Source: Verrucomicrobiota bacterium (lineage in GTDB: Bacteria > Verrucomicrobiota > Lentisphaeria > Oligosphaerales > Oligosphaeraceae). Taken from it: 9,643 nt of DNA. The notes beneath the pieces were generated by a model. That model saw nothing but the letters and a program-made list of their open reading frames with translations, did not search any database and was not told the origin of the DNA. The translations under genes were made by a program, and so were the position numbers. Shown here piece after piece: positions 1 to 9,643 of this stretch; position 1 is the first letter of the stretch; every line of letters starts with the position of its first letter. The DNA lies in assembly GCA_022709995.1 (NCBI GenBank), contig JAKLHU010000040.1, positions 1 through 9,643 of the forward strand. The letters are read 5' to 3'.

Positions 1-602
1 ACGGAGTCCTGCTCCGATTCTTTGCCGCCTTCACCGCCAAAAAACTCACCATCACGCATGGCGACTGCATCAACTGCCGGCTGTGCGAACAGACCTGCCC
101 AAATGGCGCCATCCTGGCCCCGGAACCCGCCAGCTGGCCCGAAAAATTCGCCTTGGGCCGGCAACGCATCCAACGCCTGCTCGTCATCACGCCCTTGATT
201 CTCGCGGCCGGCGCCTGGCTCGGCTTCGCCCTGGCGCCCCTGGTCGCCCGGACCAACCCGGATGTGGCCCTGGTCGAAGAACTCGACGACGCGAGCGACG
301 CCGAAACAGTCATCGCCTTCATCGTCTCCGGCCGTCCCGAGACGGAACTGCGACAGGCGGCCTGGATGGCCGCCCGCACGACGCGCTTCGGCATGACCGC
401 CGCCGGCGCCGCCCTCGCCCTCATCATCATGGCCGAACTCATCGCCCTGGCCCGCCGCCACCCCGAACGACGGACCTATGCGATTGACCCGGCCCTCTGC
501 GTCGCCTGCGGACGGTGCTTCGCCCTCTGTCCGGTCGAACGCGCCCGCCACCGCCAGACGGCCCGCCCGAACCTCGCGGCCAGACCGCCGCCAACCACCT
601 GA
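1..602 (+). CDS. NosR/NapH-like membrane 4Fe-4S protein, C-terminal part (5' end outside window)
   Basis: The open frame begins before the window, with the first full codon at 3, and shows 199 residues. Numbering from there, residues 1-10 (GVLLRFFAAF) match the stretch that precedes the ferredoxin motif in NosR/NapH/CcoG-type proteins. A first cluster motif C22-x2-C25-x2-C28-x3-C32-P follows. Then come a hydrophobic segment at about 57-82, a charged loop of about 45 residues that is probably extracytoplasmic, a second membrane segment at about 129-150, and a second motif C166-x2-C169-x2-C172-x3-C176-P. Both Fe-S motifs should therefore face the cytoplasm and pass electrons at the membrane. 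In NosR the missing N-terminal part carries a periplasmic FMN-binding domain; whether this protein has one cannot be seen. It appears to be the first visible gene of an operon with the flavoprotein, propeller and NuoEFG-like genes. The C-terminus after residue 180 is Arg/Pro-rich low complexity and may be disturbed by a frameshift. Confidence 0.8.
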   Translation, partial: GVLLRFFAAFTAKKLTITHGDCINCRLCEQTCPNGAILAPEPASWPEKFALGRQRIQRLLVITPLILAAGAWLGFALAPLVARTNPDVALVEELDDASDAETVIAFIVSGRPETELRQAAWMAARTTRFGMTAAGAALALIIMAELIALARRHPERRTYAIDPALCVACGRCFALCPVERARHRQTARPNLAARPPPTT

Positions 603-708
603 TGCTTCGGCCCCCGAACAGGCGCACATCGCCGCTCCGGCCAGACGGCCACCATCAACAACCTGCTTCAAGCCCAGCCGCCAGCGCCCGCCACCTGAAC
701 CGCCATCC

Positions 709-716
709 AAGGAGAG
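709..716 (+). promoter_or_regulatory. Ribosome binding site of the iron-sulfur flavoprotein gene
   Basis: AAGGAGAG lies 6 bases before the ATG at 723. It is the clearest Shine-Dalgarno sequence in the window and fixes that start. The 603-722 gap before it shows no promoter or terminator hairpin that I can support. Confidence 0.7.
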
Positions 717-722
717 ACAACC

Positions 723-1346
723 ATGAACGTCCTGTTGATCAACGGCAGCCCCCGCCAAAATGGCTGCACCCACGCCGCCCTGCAGACGATCGCCGACCAG
801 CTCCAAATGGAAGGCATCAACACCCAGGAACTGCACATCGGCAACAAGCCCATCCAGGCCTGCATCGCCTGCGGCGCCTGCCGGAAAACCGGCAATGGCT
901 GCGCTTTCACGGGTGATCTCGTCAATGAAACCGCCGAACGCGTGTGCCAGGCCGACGGCCTGATCGTCGGCTCCCCCGTCTACTTCGCCGGCCCCAGTGG
1001 CGCGTTGTGCGCCTTTCTCGACCGGATGTTCTTCTCCCGCTACTACGCCTTCGCGTTCAAACCGGCCGCCGCCGTCGTCAACTGCCGCCGCGGCGGCGCC
1101 AGCGCGGCATTCGACCGCCTCAACAAGTATTTCACCATGTCGAACATGCCGGTGGTCTCCTCGCAATATTGGAATTCCATGCACGGGCTGACGCCGACGG
1201 AAGGACAGTCCGACCAGGAAGGTCTGCAGACTCTGCGCGCTCTTGCCCGCAACATGGCCTGGCTGCTGAAATGCATTGACAACGCCAAAGGCAAGGTGCC
1301 GCGGCCAACCCTGGAACAGCGCATCCAGACCAACTTCATCCGCTGA
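723..1346 (+). CDS. Iron-sulfur flavoprotein, NADPH-dependent FMN reductase/flavodoxin fold
   Basis: This is a 207-residue cytoplasmic protein of the flavodoxin-like NAD(P)H oxidoreductase superfamily. The N-terminus MNVLLINGSPR followed by QNGCTHAAL (8-20) is the phosphate-binding loop for FMN. GSPVYFAGPSGALCAFLDR (83-101) is the second typical flavin-site block. Between them sits C47-x2-C50-x2-C53-x6-C60, the compact cysteine motif that carries a [4Fe-4S] cluster in archaeal-type iron-sulfur flavoproteins (ISF), so this is more likely an ISF-like electron carrier than a plain quinone reductase. Length is normal for the family. The start is set by AAGGAGAG 6 bases upstream. It lies 41 bases before the propeller gene and probably shares its transcript. 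Inference: it shuttles electrons between the diaphorase and the membrane Fe-S protein. The substrate is not deducible. Confidence 0.85.
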   Translation: MNVLLINGSPRQNGCTHAALQTIADQLQMEGINTQELHIGNKPIQACIACGACRKTGNGCAFTGDLVNETAERVCQADGLIVGSPVYFAGPSGALCAFLDRMFFSRYYAFAFKPAAAVVNCRRGGASAAFDRLNKYFTMSNMPVVSSQYWNSMHGLTPTEGQSDQEGLQTLRALARNMAWLLKCIDNAKGKVPRPTLEQRIQTNFIR

Positions 1347-1387
1347 CCACGAACGACCCTTTCCCCGAGACCGGACGGCATCAGACT

Positions 1388-3142
1388 ATGAATCGATCCC
1401 TCCTGTACCATCTCAGCCGGAATCTCTGCCTGGTTGCGCTGGCCTTTCTCCTGCTGCTGGGCTGCCTGCTGGCCGCGGAATCGCAACGGGCCAGCCGAGC
1501 CCTGCCCGGCACCGAAGCCATCCTCGTCAACCTCCGCAGCCAGATCGGCGAGAAAACCACCGACCAGCAGTTCGTCGACGCTCTCCGGGATCTCGACCTT
1601 CTCTACCGGCAGACTTATTTTCGGCACCATGACCGCATGAACCTCGGCCGCAGCCTGGCAGCCGCCGGCCTGATGGCCTTTCTTGCCGGCGCCGCCGTCA
1701 TGGCCATGACGGGCGACTACGCCCTGCGCAAACCGTCCGGGGCGCCGGCCGCAATGCGGCTCCGGCAGAACACGTATCTGCGCCACGGCCTCGCCGCGGC
1801 CATGATCGTCACCCTGGCCGCCCTGGCCATCACGACCATCCGCGACGCCGGCCGGCCGCGACGCCGGCCGCCGCCAGCAACCGCGCCCGGCCCAAACCGG
1901 CGACCGGCCGGCCCACTGGCCGCCGAAACCGCCGCCGCCCCGGCCGCCGGGACGGCGACAGCGACGGCCGCCGCCCCGGTCCCGGCGCTGCCGCTTGCCG
2001 AGGCCCTGGCGCGCGCCGCCACCTTCTGGCCCGGCTTCCGCGGCTCCATCCTCCCCAACCAAAACCGCCTGCCCGCCTCCTGGAACCTGCGCACCGCCTG
2101 GACGGCCAAAGTCCCGCTGCCAGGCTTCAACTCGCCCGTCATCTGGGAAAACCGAGTCTTCCTGACCGGCGGCGACCAGAAAACACGCGCCATCTTCTGC
2201 TTCAACCTCGAGGACGGCACCCCCCTCTGGACATGCGCGGCGGACGCCACCGCGAAACTGCCCGCGGTGACGGACGACACCGGCTACGCCGCACCCACCG
2301 CCGCCGTCGACGACAACGGCGTCATCGCCGTGTTCGCCACCGGCCAGATCATCGCCGCCGACCACCAGGGCAACCGGCGCTGGGCCAGCCAACTGCCTGA
2401 CCTGGAAATCCTCTATGGCTACGCGTCCTCGCCCCTGCTGGCCGGAAACACCCTCGTCATCCAGCATGATACGGAAAAACAGCAGACCATCCTGGCCCTG
2501 GACCCGCTGACCGGCAGCACCCAATGGCGGACCACCAGACCGTCCGCCAGCTCCTGGTCGTCGCCAACCCTCCTCCTCGCCGCCGATGGCACGCCGGTCC
2601 TCTTCACCGCCGGCAACGCCAAGGCCGAGGCCTTCGACCTCAATACCGGCAAGCAACTCTGGGCCAATGAATGCCTGGGCGGCGAAGTGGCGACCTCCGC
2701 CTTCCCGTACCAGGGTAACTTCTACTTCGCCAATACAGGCGCCGTCGCGGCCGCCTTTGAACCGCTCTCGCCAACCCCCCGCTGGCAAAATCACAATGTG
2801 CCGATGCCGGATGTGGCCTCGCCGGTCGTCGCCGACAATACCATGTACCTGTTCACCAGCGGCGGCAGCGTCATCGCCCTCAACGCCACCACCGGCGAAG
2901 AACTCTTCGAGGAAAATTTCGACAACGGCTTTTACGCCTCGCCGGTCGTCGTGGACAGCAAGATCATCGCCGTCAACCTGGACGGCAAACTCCTGGTCGT
3001 GACGCCGTCGTCGGAGCGTTTTCTCCTGGCGGCCGAGCACGACCTGGGCCGGCAGGTGGTGGCCATACCGGCCTTTGCCCGGGGCCGGATCGTCATCCGC
3101 ACGGTTGACAACCAGCTGCTCTGCCTGGAGGCCGCGCCATGA
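1388..3142 (+). CDS. Membrane-anchored PQQ-like beta-propeller protein
   Basis: This is a 584-residue protein. Three hydrophobic segments lie at about 13-30 (signal anchor or signal peptide), 89-107 and 133-150. A Pro/Ala/Arg-rich linker (about 156-210) follows, then a propeller domain from the motif WPGFRG (214-219) to the C-terminus. Blade signatures recur in the PQQ-like pattern, with an Asp/Asn-x-TG turn before Trp or Phe: NLEDGTPLW (273-281), LDPLTGSTQW (371-380), FDLNTGKQLW (416-425), LNATTGEELF (498-507). WPxFRG is typical of PQQ-like (BamB/YxaL-type) proteins of planctomycetes and relatives, which often lack bound PQQ, so the cofactor is unproven. The most likely topology places the propeller outside the cytoplasm. 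LLGC (23-26) vaguely resembles a lipobox, but the later membrane segments make a lipoprotein less likely. There is no strong Shine-Dalgarno sequence. The stop overlaps the next start (ATGA), which points to translational coupling with the diaphorase. Confidence 0.8.
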   Translation: MNRSLLYHLSRNLCLVALAFLLLLGCLLAAESQRASRALPGTEAILVNLRSQIGEKTTDQQFVDALRDLDLLYRQTYFRHHDRMNLGRSLAAAGLMAFLAGAAVMAMTGDYALRKPSGAPAAMRLRQNTYLRHGLAAAMIVTLAALAITTIRDAGRPRRRPPPATAPGPNRRPAGPLAAETAAAPAAGTATATAAAPVPALPLAEALARAATFWPGFRGSILPNQNRLPASWNLRTAWTAKVPLPGFNSPVIWENRVFLTGGDQKTRAIFCFNLEDGTPLWTCAADATAKLPAVTDDTGYAAPTAAVDDNGVIAVFATGQIIAADHQGNRRWASQLPDLEILYGYASSPLLAGNTLVIQHDTEKQQTILALDPLTGSTQWRTTRPSASSWSSPTLLLAADGTPVLFTAGNAKAEAFDLNTGKQLWANECLGGEVATSAFPYQGNFYFANTGAVAAAFEPLSPTPRWQNHNVPMPDVASPVVADNTMYLFTSGGSVIALNATTGEELFEENFDNGFYASPVVVDSKIIAVNLDGKLLVVTPSSERFLLAAEHDLGRQVVAIPAFARGRIVIRTVDNQLLCLEAAP

Positions 3143-6100
3143 TTGTCAACGACCTCCTGCCCAGGCTCAACGACATCCAGCGGCATTTCGGCTACCTGCC
3201 ATTGCCGGAACTGACCGCTCTGGCCGCGGAAACCGGCGCCAGCATGGCCGCAGTCACCTCCGCCGCCACCTTCTACAGCGGCTTCCGCACCAAGCCAGCC
3301 GGCAAGCATCTCGTCCGCGTCTGCATCGGCGCCGCCTGCCACGTCAAAGGCGCGGAAAAAGTCCACGACGCCTTCCGCCGGGAACTGGCCATCGCCGGCG
3401 ACGACGACACCAGCGCCGACCGGCTCTTCACCGTCACCAAGGTGGCCTGCCTCGGCTGCTGCATGCTGGCCGTCGCCGTCCAGATTGACGACCACATCTT
3501 TGGATGGGTCGAACCGGCCACCGTCCCGGATGTCATCCGCGACTTCCTGCACGCCAAAGCGGACGAACTGGCGGCCGCCGACAGCCGCCATGCGACAACA
3601 GTCCCCGCGAGCGCCAGCGCGGAAGCCCGCGTCTGCCGCTGCTCATCCTGCCGGGCCGCCGGCGCCGAAGAGGTCTGGCGAAACCTGCGCCGCGAAGCCG
3701 GCCGGCACGGCCTTCCCGCCCACGTCCGCGAAGTCAGCTGCACCGGCAAATCCTACCGCGCCCCCGAAGTGACCATCCTCAGCGCCGGCCACTGCTTCCA
3801 TTATCCCAATGTCCAGCCCGACACCGTTGCCCGGCTGCTGCAGGAGCATTTCACCCCCCAGGGCGCGCTGGCCAAACTGCGCTGGCGCGCGGCGGCGGTC
3901 GTGGACGCCATTTACACCGGCGCCAGCGCCTGCCTCTGCCAGTCGCCGACACTCGCGCCCGACCGCGGCGACGGCCTTCTCATCGCCACCGAGCGCGGCG
4001 GCGAATCGTCGCCGCTTGACCTCGAAGACTACCGCCGCAGCGGCGGCTTCGCCGCCCTGGACACCGCCCTGGACGCGTCGCCCGAGGCCATCCTGGCCCA
4101 GCTCGACGCCGCCAGGCTCCGCGGCCGCGGCGGCGCCGGCTTCCCCACCGCCCGCAAATGGCGGCTGGCCATGGAAACCACCGCCCCGCGCAAAACCGTC
4201 GTCTGCAATGCCGACGAAGGCGACCCCGGCGCGTTCATGGACCGGATGATCCTGGAGTCCTTCCCGTTCCGCGTCCTGGAAGGCATCCTGATCGCCGCCC
4301 GCGTCATCGCCGCCCAGGCCGCCGTCATCTATATAAGGGAAGAATACAGCCAGGCCGTCGACACCCTGATGAAGGCGATCGACCTCTGCCGACGCGACGG
4401 CCGGCTGGCCCGGCTGGGACCGGACTTCGACATCGTCCTCTTCCGCGGCGCCGGGGCCTTTGTCTGCGGCGAGGAAACCGCTCTGCTGGAATCCCTGGAA
4501 GGCCGCCGCGGCATCCCGCGCCGGCGGCCGCCCTTTCCGACGACCGCCGGGCTGTTCGGACAGCCGACCCTGATCAACAATGTCGAAACCTTCGCCTGCG
4601 TGCCATGGATCATCCGCCACGGCGGCGACGCCTTTGCCCGCCACGGCACCACCACCTCGGCCGGCACCAAGACCTTCGCCCTGGCCGGCAAAATCCGCCG
4701 CGGCGGCCTGATTGAAGTGCCGATGGGGACGACGATCCGCACGATCGTCGAAGACATCGGCGGCGGCGCCGAAAACGACCACCAGCTCAAGGCCGTGCTC
4801 ATCGGCGGACCGTCCGGCGGCTGCCTGCCGGCGGCTTTGTTCGACCTGCCGGTCGACTATGAAGCCCTCACCGCCCACGGCGCCATGATGGGCTCCGGCG
4901 GGTTGGTCGTCCTCGACGAGCGCGACTGCCTGGTCGACATCGCGGCCTATTTCCTGGATTTCACCCGCGGCGAATCCTGCGGCAAATGCACCCTCTGCCG
5001 GGAAGGCCTCCAACGCCTCCACGCCATGATCGCCAACCTGACCAGGCGCCACGATGCGCCGCTGCCGGCCACCAGCCTGGATGACATTCAGGCCCTCGCC
5101 CAGCACATCCGCCAAGGCGCTCTCTGCGGCCTGGGCCGAACCGCGCCCAACATGATCCTCAGCGCCATCCGTTATTTCCGCCGCGAATTCGAAGCCCACC
5201 TCCAAGGCCATTGCCCGACCGGCAAATGCCGCGACCTGGGACGTTTCGAAATCACGGAAAAATGCATCGGGTGCACGAAATGCGTTCAGCACTGCGCCGC
5301 CGGCGCCATTCCCTTCACCCCCTTCGAACAACACCATATCAACCAGGAACTCTGCGTCCGCTGCGGCGTCTGCCGCGACACCTGCCCGCAACACGCCATC
5401 ATCACCACCGCCCAGGAACCCGAACCTCCCCCCGACCAACCGGCAACACCACCAATCACGACGGCCAAACCGGTCACCACGACATCCGCGCCAGCCGGGG
5501 CGGCCGGGGCAAGCGGAGAAAGCGCGGCGACCGCGCCAGCCGGGGCCAACGGGACGGCCGGGGCCCCGGCCGCCCTGGAAACCACGGCCGAGGTATTGGC
5601 CGAACCGCCCCCGGCAGAGCCGTCGGCAGTCATCACGCTGGATGGTAAAGTCATCCCGTGGCAGGCGAACCAGACCATTTTGCAGCTCGCCGCCGCCCAT
5701 GACATCGCCATTCCGACCCTGTGTCACCTGCCTGGCTGCCAGGAAAATGCCCGCTGCCTCGTCTGTTCGGTCTACGACCGTGTTCTTGGCCTTTTCGTCC
5801 CTGCCTGCGACACCCTGGCCCTAGCCGGCCACCGCTATGAAAACGATACCCCAAGCGTGGCAGCCTTCCGGCGCCGCGCCGTCGAACTTCTGCTCGACCG
5901 GCATGACCTGCGCTGCGGCGCCTGCGCCAAAAAAGACACCTGCCTGCTCCGCTTTCTCATGCGTACCTTCCGCGCCCGCAAGACAACGCCAAACCCGGCC
6001 ACCACCACCGTCGTCGCGACCGGCCGCATCGCGTTCTACCCGGAACGCTGCGTACTCTGCGGACGCTGCGTGGCCCTCTCCAGACAGCGCGACGCCGGAC

Positions 6101-6246
6101 TCTGCTTCCACCATCGCGGCGGCAAAACCCAAGTCGCCCCCCCCTGGGGACAAACCTGGGAACAAGCGACCGACAACCTGGCCGAAGAACTGATCGACAT
6201 CTGCCCGGTCGGAGCCCTCTGCCAACCCCCGCCAAGCACAACCTAA
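3139..6246 (+). CDS. Fused NuoE-NuoF-NuoG(N-terminal) NAD(P)H dehydrogenase, HydB/HoxU-like
   Basis: One 1035-residue chain carries a whole diaphorase arm. NuoE-like thioredoxin-fold [2Fe-2S] domain (1-140): C62-x4-C67 and C104-x3-C108. Second thioredoxin-like domain, the NuoF N-terminus (160-235): C166, C171, C201, with Ser205 where the fourth Cys is expected. NuoF core: GRGGAGFPT (329-337) for FMN, CNADEGDPGAFMDR (356-369) and CGEET (443-447) for NADH, SLBB at about 510-565, [4Fe-4S] C614/C617/C620/C663. HydB/HndC-type double ferredoxin: C709/712/715/719 and C739/742/745/749. A Pro/Ala/Gly linker (757-828) follows. NuoG N-terminus: [2Fe-2S] C862/C873/C876/C890, His-Cys3 cluster H922/C926/C929/C935, [4Fe-4S] C971/C974/C977/C1022. 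The chain stops before any H-cluster or molybdopterin domain, as in HoxU. It is cytoplasmic, probably oxidising or reducing NAD(P)H. The start ATG overlaps the previous stop, and GGAGG lies 7 bases upstream (3127-3131). Confidence 0.9.
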   Translation: MIVNDLLPRLNDIQRHFGYLPLPELTALAAETGASMAAVTSAATFYSGFRTKPAGKHLVRVCIGAACHVKGAEKVHDAFRRELAIAGDDDTSADRLFTVTKVACLGCCMLAVAVQIDDHIFGWVEPATVPDVIRDFLHAKADELAAADSRHATTVPASASAEARVCRCSSCRAAGAEEVWRNLRREAGRHGLPAHVREVSCTGKSYRAPEVTILSAGHCFHYPNVQPDTVARLLQEHFTPQGALAKLRWRAAAVVDAIYTGASACLCQSPTLAPDRGDGLLIATERGGESSPLDLEDYRRSGGFAALDTALDASPEAILAQLDAARLRGRGGAGFPTARKWRLAMETTAPRKTVVCNADEGDPGAFMDRMILESFPFRVLEGILIAARVIAAQAAVIYIREEYSQAVDTLMKAIDLCRRDGRLARLGPDFDIVLFRGAGAFVCGEETALLESLEGRRGIPRRRPPFPTTAGLFGQPTLINNVETFACVPWIIRHGGDAFARHGTTTSAGTKTFALAGKIRRGGLIEVPMGTTIRTIVEDIGGGAENDHQLKAVLIGGPSGGCLPAALFDLPVDYEALTAHGAMMGSGGLVVLDERDCLVDIAAYFLDFTRGESCGKCTLCREGLQRLHAMIANLTRRHDAPLPATSLDDIQALAQHIRQGALCGLGRTAPNMILSAIRYFRREFEAHLQGHCPTGKCRDLGRFEITEKCIGCTKCVQHCAAGAIPFTPFEQHHINQELCVRCGVCRDTCPQHAIITTAQEPEPPPDQPATPPITTAKPVTTTSAPAGAAGASGESAATAPAGANGTAGAPAALETTAEVLAEPPPAEPSAVITLDGKVIPWQANQTILQLAAAHDIAIPTLCHLPGCQENARCLVCSVYDRVLGLFVPACDTLALAGHRYENDTPSVAAFRRRAVELLLDRHDLRCGACAKKDTCLLRFLMRTFRARKTTPNPATTTVVATGRIAFYPERCVLCGRCVALSRQRDAGLCFHHRGGKTQVAPPWGQTWEQATDNLAEELIDICPVGALCQPPPSTT

Positions 6247-6854: not shown

Positions 6855-8252
6855 ATGCGCCTTTTCCTGCAAAAACTCAAGCGCCGTCACTGCGACGGCC
6901 CCGGCGGCATCTCCGCCCTGCTGCCGATCGCCATTCCGATGATCCTGTCAAGCGTCTTTGACACGCTGATGACCTTCATTGACCGCCTGTACCTGGCTCA
7001 TGTCGGCAAAGAACACATCGCCGCCTGCATGAGCGGCGGCATCACCTCCTGGCTATGCCTGACCTTGTTCGTAGGCCTGATCGGCTACTCCTCCACCCTC
7101 GTCGCGCACCACTACGGCGCCAAGCGGTACGGAGAATGCCCCAAGGTGGTCTTCCAAGGCATCCTCCTCGCTTTCGCCAGCTACCCGCTGGCTCTGGCGG
7201 CGTCCTATTTCGCGGCCATGACCTTCGACGTGCCCGGCCACGACCGCATCCAGCTCGAACTGGAACGCCGCTACTTCTGGTACATGGCCTTCGGCGGCAT
7301 CCTCGCCCTGCTCCGGGCCGCCTTCGCCGCCTTTTTCGCCGGCATCGGCAAAACCAAAATCATCATGCAGGCCAACGCCGCCGCCCTCGTCGTCAATCTG
7401 ATCGCCAACTACCTCCTGATCTTCGGCAAATTCGGCTTTCCGGCCCTGGGGATTGACGGCGCCGCCATCGGCACGCTTCTCTCCAGCGCCTGCATGACCG
7501 GCATCATCGGCCTGTCGTTCTGGCGCCATGCCCGCCAGGAACCCTTCCGGACCGGCCTTTTCGCCCGCCTGGACCGCTACAACCTCAAGGCCCTGCTCCG
7601 CTTCGGCGCCCCCAATGGCCTCGAAAACCTCCTCGGCATGGGGTCCTTCGTCGCCATCAACTCCGCCCTGCACAGCTATGGCGCCGACGTGGCCGCCGCC
7701 ACCACCATCGTGTTCAGCTGGGACATGGTGATGTTCTTCCCCCTCCTCGGCCTGCAGGTCGGCGTCAGCACCCTGGTCGGACAGAACCTCGGCGCCGGCG
7801 ACATCCCGTCGGCGGAAAAGTCCGCCTATTCCGGTTTCAAGATGGCCTCGGGATATTCAGCCCTGGGGGTCTTCTTCTTCTGTGTTCTCCCCCACCTGCT
7901 GGTCGGCGTCTTCACGCCGGACATCCCGGGCGTCGACTACCAGGCCGCCCGCGAACTGGCCATCCCCATGATCCGGGTCGCGTCCCTGTATCTGATGTTC
8001 GACGGCTTCATGCTGATCGCCTCCGGCGCCCTGCGCGGCGCCGGCGACACCCTGGCCGTCATGCTGATCACGACCAACATCCACTGGATTTCCGCCGGCC
8101 TGGCTCTGGGCGGCGCCCACTATTTCAACTGGCAGCCGATGACATCTTGGGTCGCCCTGGTCTTCTCCTTCATGATCGGAAGCATCGTCCTCGGCATCCG
8201 CTTCAAACTGGGACACTGGAAAAAAATCCGCATGCTGGAACCGGCCGCCTGA
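6855..8252 (+). CDS. MATE-family multidrug/cation efflux transporter
   Basis: This is a 465-residue integral membrane protein of normal MATE length, with about twelve hydrophobic segments in two halves. It is expected to export cationic drugs or metabolites in exchange for Na+ or H+. Family signatures are visible: FIDRLYLAHVG (41-51), with D43 at the conserved acidic position of the first helix; GQNLGAGD (309-316); and GALRGAGDT (391-399), the matching loop of the second half. The basic N-terminus (KLKRR, 7-11) and the C-terminus (HWKKIR) fit cytoplasmic ends. The start ATG has only a weak GGGA-like ribosome site upstream. No longer in-frame start is evident. It stands alone, downstream of a structured leader, and converges on pyrC with a 50-base gap holding no clear terminator. 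The substrate is unknown. Confidence 0.92.
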   Translation: MRLFLQKLKRRHCDGPGGISALLPIAIPMILSSVFDTLMTFIDRLYLAHVGKEHIAACMSGGITSWLCLTLFVGLIGYSSTLVAHHYGAKRYGECPKVVFQGILLAFASYPLALAASYFAAMTFDVPGHDRIQLELERRYFWYMAFGGILALLRAAFAAFFAGIGKTKIIMQANAAALVVNLIANYLLIFGKFGFPALGIDGAAIGTLLSSACMTGIIGLSFWRHARQEPFRTGLFARLDRYNLKALLRFGAPNGLENLLGMGSFVAINSALHSYGADVAAATTIVFSWDMVMFFPLLGLQVGVSTLVGQNLGAGDIPSAEKSAYSGFKMASGYSALGVFFFCVLPHLLVGVFTPDIPGVDYQAARELAIPMIRVASLYLMFDGFMLIASGALRGAGDTLAVMLITTNIHWISAGLALGGAHYFNWQPMTSWVALVFSFMIGSIVLGIRFKLGHWKKIRMLEPAA

Positions 8253-8302: not shown

Positions 8303-9589
8303 TTACAGTCCACGGTCGGCCACGCCCGTCCATTTCCCCCCGACGAAGACGCCGACGACGTTGCCGCGGCAGGCCCAGCCGTCATACGGGCAATTATGCG
8401 ACCGGGACGCGAATTCGGCCACTTTCAAGCAATGCGGCGCGTCCAGGTCAAGAACCGTGACATCGGCGACGGCGCCGATGGTCATGGCGCCGACCGGCAG
8501 CCCCAGCAGTTCCCGCTGCCCCTCGGTAAACAACGACACCAGCCGGCGGAGGCTGAGAAACCCGGTGTGGTACAACCCGGTCAGACACAGCGCGACGGCG
8601 GCTTCCAGACCGACGATGCCGAACGGCGCCTCCAGCCAGCCGGCGGCCTTTTCCGCCTCGGCATGCGGAGCGTGGTCGGTGGCAACGCAGGAAATCGTCC
8701 CGTCCAGCACTCCGGCCAAGAGGGCTTGGCGGTCGCTTTCCTCGCGCAGCGGCGGCGCCATCTTGGCGTTGACGCCATACACCGCGGCGGCGGCATCGGT
8801 CAGAAACAGGTGATGCGGAGTGACTTCGCCGCTGACGGGCAGGCCTTCCCGGCGGGCGGCCCGCAGCATTTGCACAGAGCCGGCGGCGCTGAGATGCTGC
8901 AGATGCACCCGACAGCCGGTTTCCCGCGCCAGGGCGATGTCGCGGGCGACAATCGTCTCCTCGGCCGCGCGCGGCTGGCCTAGCAAGCGCAGCCGGGCGG
9001 CCACGGCGCCGCCATGCATGACGCCGGGCTTGGACAAACGGAAATCTTCGCAATGGTCGATCACCGGCAATCGCAGCGCGGCGGCGGCCCGCATGGCGGC
9101 CCGCATGACTGCACTGTCCTGGGGCGTGCTGCCGTCGTCCGTCAAGGCCGGGGCCCCGGCGGCCTGCATGGCCGCATAATCCGCCAGCTCTTTCCCGGCC
9201 CGGCCCAGCGTCAGAGCGCCGGCCTGCAGGACATGCACCGCGCCCCGCTCGGCGGCGCCTTGACGCACCGCCCGCACCCCCGCCGCCGAGTCAATCGCCG
9301 GCGCCGTGTTCGGCATCGCCAGGACGGTCGTGAAACCGCCCGCCGCCGCCGCCCGCGTCGCGCTGCCGATGTCCTCCTTGTGCGTCTGCCCTGGCTACCG
9401 CAAATGCACATGCAAATCAATGAAGCCAGGCGCCAGCACCAGCCCGCGCACGTCGACCCGCCGCGGCGAAACCAGAGATTCCAAGGCGGCAAAACGGCCG
9501 CCGCAAATCCCCACCTCGCGGACCTCGTCAACCCCGTTGACCGGATCAACCACCCGCGCCCCGCACAATACCATGTCCTGCTGCATCAT
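8303..9589 (-). pseudogene. pyrC: Dihydroorotase, interrupted by one in-frame amber codon
   Basis: Read as one frame from the ATG at 9589 this is a 428-codon class I dihydroorotase, the usual length. The enzyme closes carbamoyl-aspartate to dihydroorotate in pyrimidine synthesis. Metal and catalytic residues are all present: H60-V-H62, D151/D152 in LTDDG, H179 in VIDHCED, H232 in VHLQHLS, and D305 in ATDHAPH (303-309). Codon 65 is TAG (9397-9395), in the place of the Glu of the conserved HxHLREPG motif; the frame resumes at once with PGQTHKED. Without readthrough only 64 residues are made, ending just after the HxH pair, and a restart at M92 would lack it. Nothing else is damaged, so the loss is recent, suppressed or a sequence error. 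A GAGGG precedes the ATG by 5 bases. The end of another frame overlaps the start. Confidence 0.9.
9395..9397 (-). other. In-frame TAG inside pyrC
   Basis: The + strand bases CTA give TAG on the coding strand, between the codons for R64 and P66. The family has Glu here; GAG to TAG is a single change. The other genes in the window stop with TGA or TAA, never TAG. Confidence 0.95.
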
Positions 9590-9643
9590 CCCTGCCCTCG
9601 CCTGAATGTCACCACAACTCCTGCCGACTCTGACTCCCTCCCC
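9586..9643 (-). CDS. Possible 3' end of a gene upstream of pyrC
   Basis: On the - strand one frame is open from the window edge for 18 codons, ending ...VVVTFRRGQG, and its TGA (9588-9586) overlaps the pyrC ATG as ATGA. Such overlaps are common in operons. A pyrimidine gene such as pyrB would be a natural neighbour, but the visible residues match nothing I can name. A second frame has a stop at about 9611, so this is uncertain. Confidence 0.25.
   Translation of the reverse strand, partial: GRESESAGVVVTFRRGQG

Follow-up and report, generated by a model that had tools for sequence, protein, structure and literature searches.

The window, meaning the whole stretch of DNA analysed here, is an entire 9643-base contig from a MAG estimated to be 64% complete. 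ORF calling placed four consecutive open reading frames on its + strand, at 3-602, 723-1346, 1388-3142 and 3139-6246, and these frames, together with their Pfam matches, confirmed the four genes named by the initial annotation (NapH-like, ISF-type, propeller and NuoE-F-G fusion). The first frame runs open off the left edge of the contig and, because the window is the whole contig of an incomplete MAG, only the 3' part of that gene, encoding the last 199 residues, is present. The genes and their junction are as follows:

1 to 602, + strand: NapH-like membrane Fe-S protein, 3' part, last 199 amino acids (ORF, Fer4 matches, identity to a congener, hydropathy)
723 to 1346, + strand: ISF-type flavoprotein resembling NAD(P)H-dependent FMN reductases, accessory (PF03358, Cys motif, locus counts)
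1388 to 3142, + strand: PropA, three N-terminal hydrophobic helices plus a BamB-like propeller, predicted extracytoplasmic (PF13360, hydropathy, AlphaFold2, fold match)
3139 to 3142, + strand: ATGA, the PropA stop overlapping the NuoEFG start (sequence)
3139 to 6246, + strand: BfuC-BfuB-BfuA-like fusion (NuoE-NuoF-NuoG N-terminal), 1035 amino acids (ORF, Pfam, alignment)

The ATGA said to couple propeller and diaphorase was thus found at 3139-3142, and together with the gene order it suggests, but does no more than suggest, co-transcription. The window holds the downstream end of a conserved operon.

The 3-602 product contains two 4Fe-4S motifs (Pfam Fer4) separated by two hydrophobic helices (hydropathy) and is 82% identical to the full-length, 421-residue protein of a congener (L034:10666-11928). 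The window itself shows the C-terminal part only of this protein; in an alignment of 76 NapH-like sequences, counting those with a letter at the position, the CX3CP cysteines were kept in 76/76 and 75/75 and the 4Fe-4S cysteines in 74/74 and 72/72. Polytopic architecture, CX3CP motifs (which we take to be a NapH criterion) and two [4Fe-4S] clusters were found across this alignment. The operon resembles NapGH in these respects and also in its partner ferredoxin, which carries four 4Fe-4S sets and, in most of the sequences aligned, a Tat signal. At the same time, the NapH-like protein has about seven hydrophobic helices in a simple scan, two between the clusters, versus four in NapH, and the operon adds an NADH/ferredoxin module and propellers with no nitrate reductase seen: a domain search of operon proteins returned neither a molybdopterin domain nor a periplasmic nitrate reductase among those scanned.

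PropA carries a PQQ_2 domain (PF13360, 98.7 bits) C-terminal to three hydrophobic helices (hydropathy). Its AlphaFold2 model has a pLDDT of 86.4, and its best fold match was BamB, with a TM-score by target of up to 0.79. A PQQ-dependent dehydrogenase is supported neither by family score (46.8 bits against a cut-off of 480.05) nor by fold, BamB being the closest. PropA shares the propeller fold with BamB and differs from it in its three hydrophobic helices and electron-transfer neighbours. Of the membrane-anchored, PQQ-like propeller proposed initially, the propeller and the hydrophobic helices stand, while the PQQ likeness gives way to a fold nearest to the scaffold protein BamB rather than to PQQ enzymes.

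Pfam resolved the 3139-6246 product into 2Fe-2S_thioredx, Complex1_51K, NADH_4Fe-4S, Fer4 and Fer4_Nqo3/NADH-G domains, which we subdivide as follows:

3151 to 3543, + strand: BfuC/NuoE-like [2Fe-2S] domain, residues 5-135 (PF01257; C62, C67, C104, C107 and C108 in 48/48)
3619 to 3858, + strand, limits approximate: second thioredoxin-like [2Fe-2S] domain, B5 site (PF01257 in two stretches; alignment with the HydB N-terminal domain)
4006 to 5208, + strand: BfuB/NuoF core with FMN/NADH domain, B1 4Fe-4S, B2 ligands C597, T635 and H687, then C692/C697 (Pfam, PDB-sequence match, alignment)
5236 to 5409, + strand: two [4Fe-4S] clusters, B3/B4 (Fer4; Cys kept in 47 or 48 of 48)
5632 to 6228, + strand: N-terminal portion of BfuA/NuoG, carrying A1 [2Fe-2S], A2 (HxxxCxxCx5C) and a single additional [4Fe-4S], A4, without a catalytic domain (PF22117/PF10588/NuoG)

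Ligands were counted in an alignment of the window protein with 47 homologues (n=48). The B2 ligands C597, H687, C692 and C697 were each present in 48/48, position 635 was T in 21 (the window's among them), C in 17 and another residue in 10, and the B1, B3, B4 and C1 ligands were kept in 47 or 48. At the B5 site, C171 and C201 were found in 48/48 and the fourth position was Ser in 23/48 (Ser205 in the window), with an extra Cys in this region at 166 in 23/48 and at 168 in 21/48. The A1, A2 and A4 ligands were present in 18 of the 20 longest fused proteins, the other two being without that domain. The C-terminal BfuA part holds one Fer4-type cluster, which fits Type 2 (A1, A2, A4; no A3/A5); this assignment was made in part from what we take to be the NuoG/HydA motifs.

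Against the PDB, the fusion matched HydB-like B subunits best, these filling the first nine places (NfnB at 562.8 bits, the rest at 467-529 bits, including NiFe HydB and bifurcating FeFe HydB), after which scores fell to 340 bits for formate dehydrogenase beta and 312 bits for NuoF; the matches listed for these last two end at residues 682-694, N-terminal of the B3/B4 clusters. According to Schut et al. 2022 (PMC9304861), nearly every BfuB has the B2 His, which homologues that do not bifurcate lack. By these signatures the fusion belongs to the Bfu (HydABC-like) bifurcation-signature family, with a Type 2-like BfuA, and is not a complex I arm. The NuoE, NuoF and NuoG domains expected of a NuoEFG-type NAD(P)H module are there, but not a plain NuoEFG arm, as the B2 His and the PDB matches mark the protein as Bfu type. 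As a complex I NuoF it scored 403.2 bits with nuoF_fam against a cut-off of 558.65, with no membrane-arm domain among the operon proteins scanned, and NuoH-type PF00146 gave no match in three carriers (G036, G037 and G039, MAGs 85-90% complete). Compared with Bfu Type 2 as defined in part of PMC9304861, the window has the BfuC, BfuB and BfuA domains, the B2 His and Cys, the C-terminal ferredoxin clusters and a BfuA with only A1, A2 and A4. It differs in that the three subunits are fused in one chain, one B5 Cys is a Ser, a third-substrate subunit of known kind is absent, and a NapH/ferredoxin/propeller set is linked.

Lack of conserved gene order in relatives had been named beforehand as grounds for rejecting the arrangement. 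Among the 80 best loci, picked by the four-cluster ferredoxin alone, the order PropB-NHL-(TatFd)-NapH-PropA-NuoEF was kept in 42, from many phyla, and individual genes were present in 76 (NapH), 68 (NHL), 64 (PropB), 61 (PropA) and 53 (NuoEFG). A recognised NuoEFG gene was absent from 27/80 loci, in some because the contig ends, and propellers are missing from certain loci that do have ferredoxin and NapH. The ferredoxin, whose gene is absent from the window, has 17 invariant Cys in the 7/7 proteins aligned and four [4Fe-4S] as in NapG; a Tat twin-arginine occurs in five of the seven, the congener's included, and is missing in two. Relatives' sequences contain membrane parts and, by their signal, exported parts, and one homologue (P0216) is an NHL-ferredoxin fusion. 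In the genome that the window comes from, which is fragmentary and estimated to be 64% complete, most of PropB, the NHL protein and the ferredoxin did not turn up.

NapH, PropA and NuoEF thus recur as first described, but not the ISF-type gene, which occurred in 2/80 loci, both of the window's genus. Its product is an FMN_red protein (PF03358, 108.1 bits) with a CX2CX2CX6C motif, a combination we take to be ISF-like, and on these counts the gene is a local, accessory addition. BfuA is a separate protein in 29/80 loci, and the two scanned carry an NfnB/GltD-like FAD domain, a likeness to the Nfn-Bfu transhydrogenases of Schut et al. 2022 (PMC9304861); NADPH, rather than NapH, could therefore be the third substrate there.

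For the left flank we turned to the congener, to Oligosphaera ethanolica and to further contigs of the genome that the window belongs to. The initial annotation had asked whether it held an FMN-binding domain, cytochromes or a hydrogenase, and had taken an ordinary [FeFe] hydrogenase or formate dehydrogenase partner as evidence against its proposal. The operon proteins scanned for this (12 from the congener, 8 from Oligosphaera and a few from other loci) contained no catalytic domain of a hydrogenase or formate dehydrogenase, FMN_bind was absent from the operon proteins scanned (window, congener, Oligosphaera and a few other loci), and CXXCH was rare, occurring as a single copy in only 7 called proteins of the 80 loci. 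Instead, the flank holds a terpenoid cassette of ferredoxin, radical SAM, DUF116-polyprenyl synthase and class II cyclase. In the window's genome the radical SAM, DUF116-polyprenyl synthase, Cyc1 and Cyc2 genes lie on contig C92 and PropC on C675. The relatives' left-flank cyclase has the DxDD of class II terpene cyclases, as DADD, invariant in 6/6 and aligned with the DVDD of squalene-hopene cyclase (1gsz). Cyc2 shares that enzyme's fold family and catalytic motif, and differs in its score (83.6 bits versus the hopene-cyclase cut-off of 431.1) and in its neighbours, DUF116-polyprenyl synthase and radical SAM. The cassette genes likely make a cyclic terpenoid, one of a group of ring-shaped, fat-like molecules.

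The cassette adjoins the core in four arrangements. Across the 29 genomes of the family, strong PropA hits and strong cyclase hits fall in one identical set of 12; across 387 genomes of the phylum, 60 have the ferredoxin, 62 the cyclase and 50 both (Fisher p 4e-41, too small a value because the genomes are related), with both in 33/197 genera. Ten ferredoxin carriers in the phylum are without cyclase and 12 cyclase carriers without ferredoxin, although two genomes with cyclase and no ferredoxin (G000 and G024) do have other operon genes. Among 44 core-bearing genomes of other named phyla the cyclase was present in 14 and absent in 30, and together with the discordant genomes of the phylum this makes the terpenoid tie lineage-dependent. 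The cyclase family is also far larger than the core seen (7757 of the 7997 proteins scored reach E <= 1e-40).

Our preferred reading, to which we give a probability of roughly 40%, is NADH/ferredoxin-driven electron export across the inner membrane, by the Bfu module through the NapH-like protein to the Tat-type four-cluster ferredoxin, serving a cyclic terpenoid made or modified by the same operon; its direction, acceptor and product are what we infer. Electrons from NADH and reduced ferredoxin would enter the BfuBC core and exit via A4, as proposed for Type 2 Bfu, and the NapH-like protein would accept them at the cytoplasmic face and pass them to the exported ferredoxin, as NapH does to NapG. 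PropA, PropB and the NHL protein, anchored and outward-facing, may form a scaffold that keeps the ferredoxin next to its partner. In this lineage the electrons would be accepted by a step that makes or alters a cyclised polyprenoid, itself the work of the DUF116-polyprenyl synthase, two cyclase-like proteins and the radical SAM enzyme; where the cassette is lacking, this electron arm would have to serve another purpose. No acceptor enzyme was recognised among the operon proteins scanned. The gene set described initially and its conservation are supported, and so is the earlier idea of an electron path linking NAD(H) to a partner outside the cytoplasm, in an arrangement unlike that of any standard complex I, Rnf, Nqr or Hox.

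Electrons might instead flow inward, with an extracytoplasmic substrate oxidised at the propeller/ferredoxin side and Bfu bifurcating to NAD+ and ferredoxin. Bfu enzymes are described as reversible in part of PMC9304861, NapH-like systems are reported with oxidases as well as reductases in part of PMC8238504, and an Rnf/Nqr-type gene (PF03116), present in 29/29 family genomes, could be part of a system that consumes reduced ferredoxin; however, no dehydrogenase was recognised among the scanned proteins and PropA is far from the PQQ enzymes in score and fold, which leaves this route unlikely. A quinone-linked respiratory enzyme, in which Bfu reduces menaquinone via the NapH-like protein while the exported ferredoxin does no more than pass quinol electrons on to a terminal reductase encoded elsewhere, would suit the conserved CX3CP motifs, the description of NapGH as a quinol dehydrogenase (PMC5449189) and the UbiA-type prenyltransferases in 23/29 family genomes, but UbiA is not quinone-specific and the scan of linked proteins revealed no reductase, and we consider it quite unlikely. 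Somewhat less plausible again is a cytosolic Bfu enzyme unconnected in function with the envelope/lipid cluster in its operon, the NapH/ferredoxin pair having its own electron source. Relatives' separate BfuA could work without NapH, the 27 loci without recognised NuoEFG would agree, and order and ATGA are suggestive only; yet PropA is followed by NuoEF in the 42 loci that keep the order and, as BfuA in this clade has no catalytic domain, only the NapH arm is in sight as a partner for A4. A complex I fragment, or a flavinylated NapH/Nos/EET-type system of the ordinary kind, is very improbable: NapH/NosR-like and NuoF-like subunits are present, and a NapH-like membrane Fe-S conduit is shared with the flavinylated systems in part of Meheust et al. 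2021 (PMC8238504), but that text reports NuoF-like genes beside MsrQ-like clusters rather than NapH-like ones, FMN_bind and multiple CXXCH are missing from the proteins covered, and the nuoF_fam and PF00146 results speak against complex I.

A conserved partner set spanning the membrane would mean that the third substrate of at least some Bfu enzymes lies outside the cytoplasm; 17 BfuB clades are listed without assigned function in part of Schut et al. 2022 (PMC9304861). A text search found no mention of NapH, PQQ or propeller in the main text of two Bfu papers, PMC9304861 among them, and no description of this system was found in the literature searched. The Bfu core, with the NapH-like protein connecting it to a four-cluster ferredoxin that would sit outside on a scaffold of propellers, could possibly, if doubtfully, be a new kind of membrane enzyme driving low-potential reductive chemistry outside the cytoplasm in anaerobes from many phyla, with an oxygen-independent pathway to cyclic terpenoid membrane lipids in Lentisphaeria-type lineages, or with the terpenoid as the complex's own lipid redox carrier. 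Through the tie to the class II cyclase cassette, a connection of terpenoid lipids with anaerobic energy metabolism becomes open to test. The operon occurs, without the ISF-type gene, in a cultured organism, Oligosphaera ethanolica DSM 24202, and the core occurs without a cyclase match in a named strain, Perlabentimonas gracilis; the two form a contrast pair.

The contig reads, consecutively on the + strand, the four genes named in the initial annotation (NapH-like, ISF-type, propeller and NuoEFG fusion), and the ATGA overlap said there to couple the propeller to the diaphorase is present at 3139-3142. The window is one complete contig of a MAG of 692 contigs (estimated completeness 64%); genes were called with a custom script, which places gene boundaries and small genes only approximately and can overlook a gene.

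Features of the window
3-602, + strand: NapH-like Fe-S membrane protein, last 199 residues (ORF, domain search)
723-1346, + strand: ISF-type, FMN reductase-like protein (ORF, domain search)
1388-3142, + strand: propeller PropA, with three N-terminal hydrophobic helices (ORF, domain search, hydropathy)
3139-6246, + strand: NuoE-NuoF-NuoG fusion, 1035 residues (ORF, domain search)
6855-8252, + strand: MATE transporter, ~600 bases beyond the operon
8303-9316 and 9395-9643, - strand: dihydroorotase in two pieces (ORF calls)

The MATE transporter is probably outside the electron-transfer system, because the genes downstream of the operon differ in a congener. The split of the dihydroorotase suggests a frameshift near 9316-9395, be it from faulty sequencing or in a gene that is truly disrupted.

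The operon is present in two congeners and in other genomes of the family, some copies being cut by contig ends. In the congener G020 it runs PropC, Fd1 (two 4Fe-4S motifs), a radical SAM protein, a DUF116-polyprenyl synthase fusion, Cyc1 and Cyc2, followed by PropB, a small NHL-type protein, the ferredoxin TatFd (four 4Fe-4S sets), the NapH-like and ISF-type proteins, PropA and the NuoEFG fusion; we refer to Fd1 through Cyc2 as the cassette and to the second half, apart from the ISF-type gene, as the core. The isolate Oligosphaera ethanolica DSM 24202 (locus L099) has the run from Fd1 onward without the ISF-type gene, and after NuoEFG come PropD, an ABC ATPase and an FtsX-type permease, with a PropC-like gene beyond these. 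In the window's own genome, PropC lies on contig C675 and the genes for radical SAM, DUF116-polyprenyl synthase, Cyc1 and Cyc2 on contig C92, all 84-85% identical in nucleotides to those of the congener, while most of PropB, the NHL protein, TatFd and Fd1 was not found in this ~64% complete MAG and was presumably lost in assembly gaps. A hydrogenase or formate dehydrogenase catalytic subunit in the left flank would have spoken against the initial annotation, and the operon proteins scanned include neither, nor a nitrate or nitrous-oxide reductase that could serve as partner. The FMN-binding domain or cytochromes that it proposed to look for there were not seen either, the proteins scanned showing no flavinylated subunit and no cytochrome.

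A scan of genome contigs with a TatFd alignment matched at least 587 stretches, of which 503 were confirmed, and the best 80 of these, a choice that favours the window's relatives, were analysed. As deposited, their names include Lentisphaerae, Kiritimatiellae, Planctomycetota, Bacteroidales, KSB1, Spirochaetales, Aminicenantes, Calditrichaeota, Latescibacterota, Armatimonadetes and others. Among these best 80 of 503 confirmed loci, the NapH-like gene was found in 76, NHL in 68, PropB in 64, PropA in 61 and NuoEF in 53; the TatFd ORF itself was called in 68, though all 80 were retrieved through TatFd. The ordered run PropB-NHL-(TatFd)-NapH-PropA-NuoEF occurs in 42/80, at least three of the five cassette genes in 20/80 and the ISF-type gene in 2/80. 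The gene order is conserved, as the initial annotation needed it to be, and the co-occurrence of four families that it proposed to search for holds for NapH, PropA and NuoEF but not for the ISF-type gene. L126, L132, L138 and L139 are among the loci that have TatFd and NapH without a recognised PropA and PropB.

The nine top PDB matches of the fusion are HydB-like subunits, the best being NfnB (562.8 bits). Next come two records, titled NADH dehydrogenase (quinone) at 529 bits and HoxF at 515 bits, which we take to be Stn transhydrogenases, then NiFe HydB (498), FeFe HydB (478-495, a partial chain scoring 468) and a last HydB-like match (467). Scores then fall to 340 bits for formate dehydrogenase beta and 312 for NuoF, and the matches listed for these two stop between residues 682 and 694 of the fusion. 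Schut et al. (2022; PMC9304861) take as the defining feature of the HydABC-like, electron-bifurcating Bfu family a BfuBC core whose B2 cluster is unusual. The ligands of this cluster are C438, C476 or Thr, H525, C531 and C536 in the reference enzyme and, by alignment, C597, T635, H687, C692 and C697 in the window. Conservation was assessed in proteins of one cluster longer than 700 aa (47 homologues plus the window, 48 in all, BfuA-only proteins excluded). All 48 have C597, H687, C692 and C697 as well as every B1 ligand and BfuC cysteine, and each B3/B4 ligand is found in 47 or all 48. At position 635, 21 of the 48 have T and 17 have C, and one B5 position is Ser in 23/48. A BfuA part is found in 18 of 20 proteins longer than 940 aa, with the A1, A2 and A4 ligands in 18/18, and the domain search found no catalytic domain after the BfuA part of the window's fusion; A1, A2 and A4 without a catalytic domain match the Type 2 pattern as the text of PMC9304861 names it. 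A separate BfuA, mostly of ~525 residues, occurs in 29/80 loci, and both such proteins scanned carry a GltD/NfnB-like FAD domain. Of the NuoEFG-type NAD(P)H module originally proposed, the NuoE-F-G domains stand, but the HydB-like PDB matches and the B2 ligands mark it as Bfu-type.

The window's locus shares the BfuBC core and B2 ligands with the Bfu family but adds a different partner set (NapH-like, TatFd, propellers). In complete NapH-like homologues, counting the sequences that have a residue at the position, the cysteines of CX3CP are retained in 76/76 and 75/75 and those of the 4Fe-4S motifs in 74/74 and 72/72; about seven helices are predicted by a simple scan of hydropathy. In the text consulted of Tooke et al. 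(2017; PMC5449189), NapH clusters lie at the cytoplasmic side, and NapG is Tat-dependent, periplasmic and predicted to hold four clusters. TatFd has 17 invariant Cys in 7/7 aligned sequences and a twin-arginine in 5/7. With the PropA model (mean pLDDT 86.4), BamB chains match best in Foldseek, and the 50 matches listed of 1434 include no PQQ enzyme; a quinoprotein reading is opposed by family score and fold, a result that concerns PropA alone among the propellers. The NHL protein, modelled from a longer homologue (pLDDT 92.5), matches NHL domains best (TRIM2 and others) and also other propellers. Each GCCNP residue of this protein is shared by 67 or 68 of 68 sequences, and the motif might, with TxEK, mark a redox-active Cys pair or metal site; methanol dehydrogenase has a vicinal disulphide, which we considered as a parallel for GCCNP. 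Both motifs are near-invariant in the NHL protein at L047:10073-11077 and its homologues, in lineages of several phyla, and one protein from a large search (P0216) fuses an NHL domain of this kind with Fer4 domains.

Cyc2 aligns to squalene-hopene cyclase (1gsz, 89.8 bits), its invariant DADD sitting on the catalytic DVDD. In the window's family, a strong PropA match (E at most 1e-57) is found in 12/29 genomes and a strong cyclase match (E at most 1e-8) in the identical 12, the other 17 having weak matches or none for both. Of 387 phylum genomes, 60 have TatFd (E <= 1e-20), 62 the cyclase (E <= 1e-40) and 50 the two together, with a Fisher odds ratio of 131 and a p of 4e-41 that relatedness makes too small; in these mostly fragmented assemblies, the two share one contig in 21 of the 50 and lie on different contigs in 29. 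At genus level (197 genera), TatFd is found in 40, the cyclase in 39 and both in 33. The cassette adjoins the core in four arrangements.

Arrangements of cassette and core
before the core, same strand: L034 (from the congener), L212
after the core, same strand: L211, L224
convergent with the core: L213, L214
divergent from the core: L233

Counting against the terpenoid link, the cyclase was found in only 14/44 core-bearing genomes from records of other phyla. These 44 of the 80 loci bear names of other phyla or just 'bacterium'; the Planctomycetota-named L097, L105, L109 and L128 were left out, and in L097 and L105 the cassette is beside the core. Twelve of the 14 cyclase-bearing genomes were inspected. 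Three Bacteroidota genomes (L230-L232) have the five cassette genes together, but within the stretch that was read the core does not adjoin them. In L224 and L228, the two loci checked among those without a plain radical SAM gene, the protein next to Fd1 and DUF116-polyprenyl synthase resembles B12-type radical SAM most (84.6 bits to TIGR04013, cut-off 251).

We infer that NADH and reduced ferredoxin would feed the BfuBC core, that electrons would exit via A4 to the NapH-like protein, and that they would cross the membrane to TatFd for use outside the cytoplasm on a propeller scaffold; in this lineage they would most likely serve the synthesis or modification of a cyclised polyprenoid. Less probably, the chain runs in reverse or includes a quinone step, or a soluble Bfu enzyme is simply co-transcribed. 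An Rnf/Nqr-type gene is present in 29/29 family genomes and a UbiA-type gene in 23/29. Complex I is an unlikely partner, because the carriers G036, G037 and G039 (MAGs 85-90% complete) gave no NuoH-type match.

All parts come from known families, and the combination is a Bfu family variant with a new kind of partner set. NapH, PQQ and propeller do not occur in the main text of Schut et al. (PMC9304861), nor in that of a 2024 study of Bfu enzymes from Hydrogenedentota (PMC11406978). The text consulted of Meheust et al. (2021; PMC8238504) describes NapH-like systems with flavinylated domains, whereas none were found here. In the literature searched, mostly outside subscription papers, a NapH/ferredoxin/propeller/NuoEF cluster or a link to a terpene cyclase is undescribed.

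In the cyclase-only genome L198, no redox substitute was found among the five neighbours scanned (genes of SMP-30-like, DUF34, glycosylase and MlaE type; the fifth gave no match). Homologues of the SMP-30-like gene adjoin the cyclase in L198, L200 and L203, all without TatFd, and L198 and L200 also have the MlaE-type permease family and ABC ATPase homologues (L198 alone was scanned); these neighbours suggest a lipid role for the terpenoid. The DUF116-polyprenyl synthase fusion at L034:3193-4815 has as its best model the family 2 encapsulin cargo polyprenyl transferase (102.2 bits, cut-off 450). The operon of Gaoshiqia sediminis includes an AAA/EVE protein and a McrBC component, placed between NuoEF and a separate BfuA-like gene (L160:16141-19748). 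Finally, a family (cluster c13, L113-L166) found in 14/80 loci adjoins PropD or the ABC ATPase, and its one scanned member is a GT4-type glycosyltransferase.
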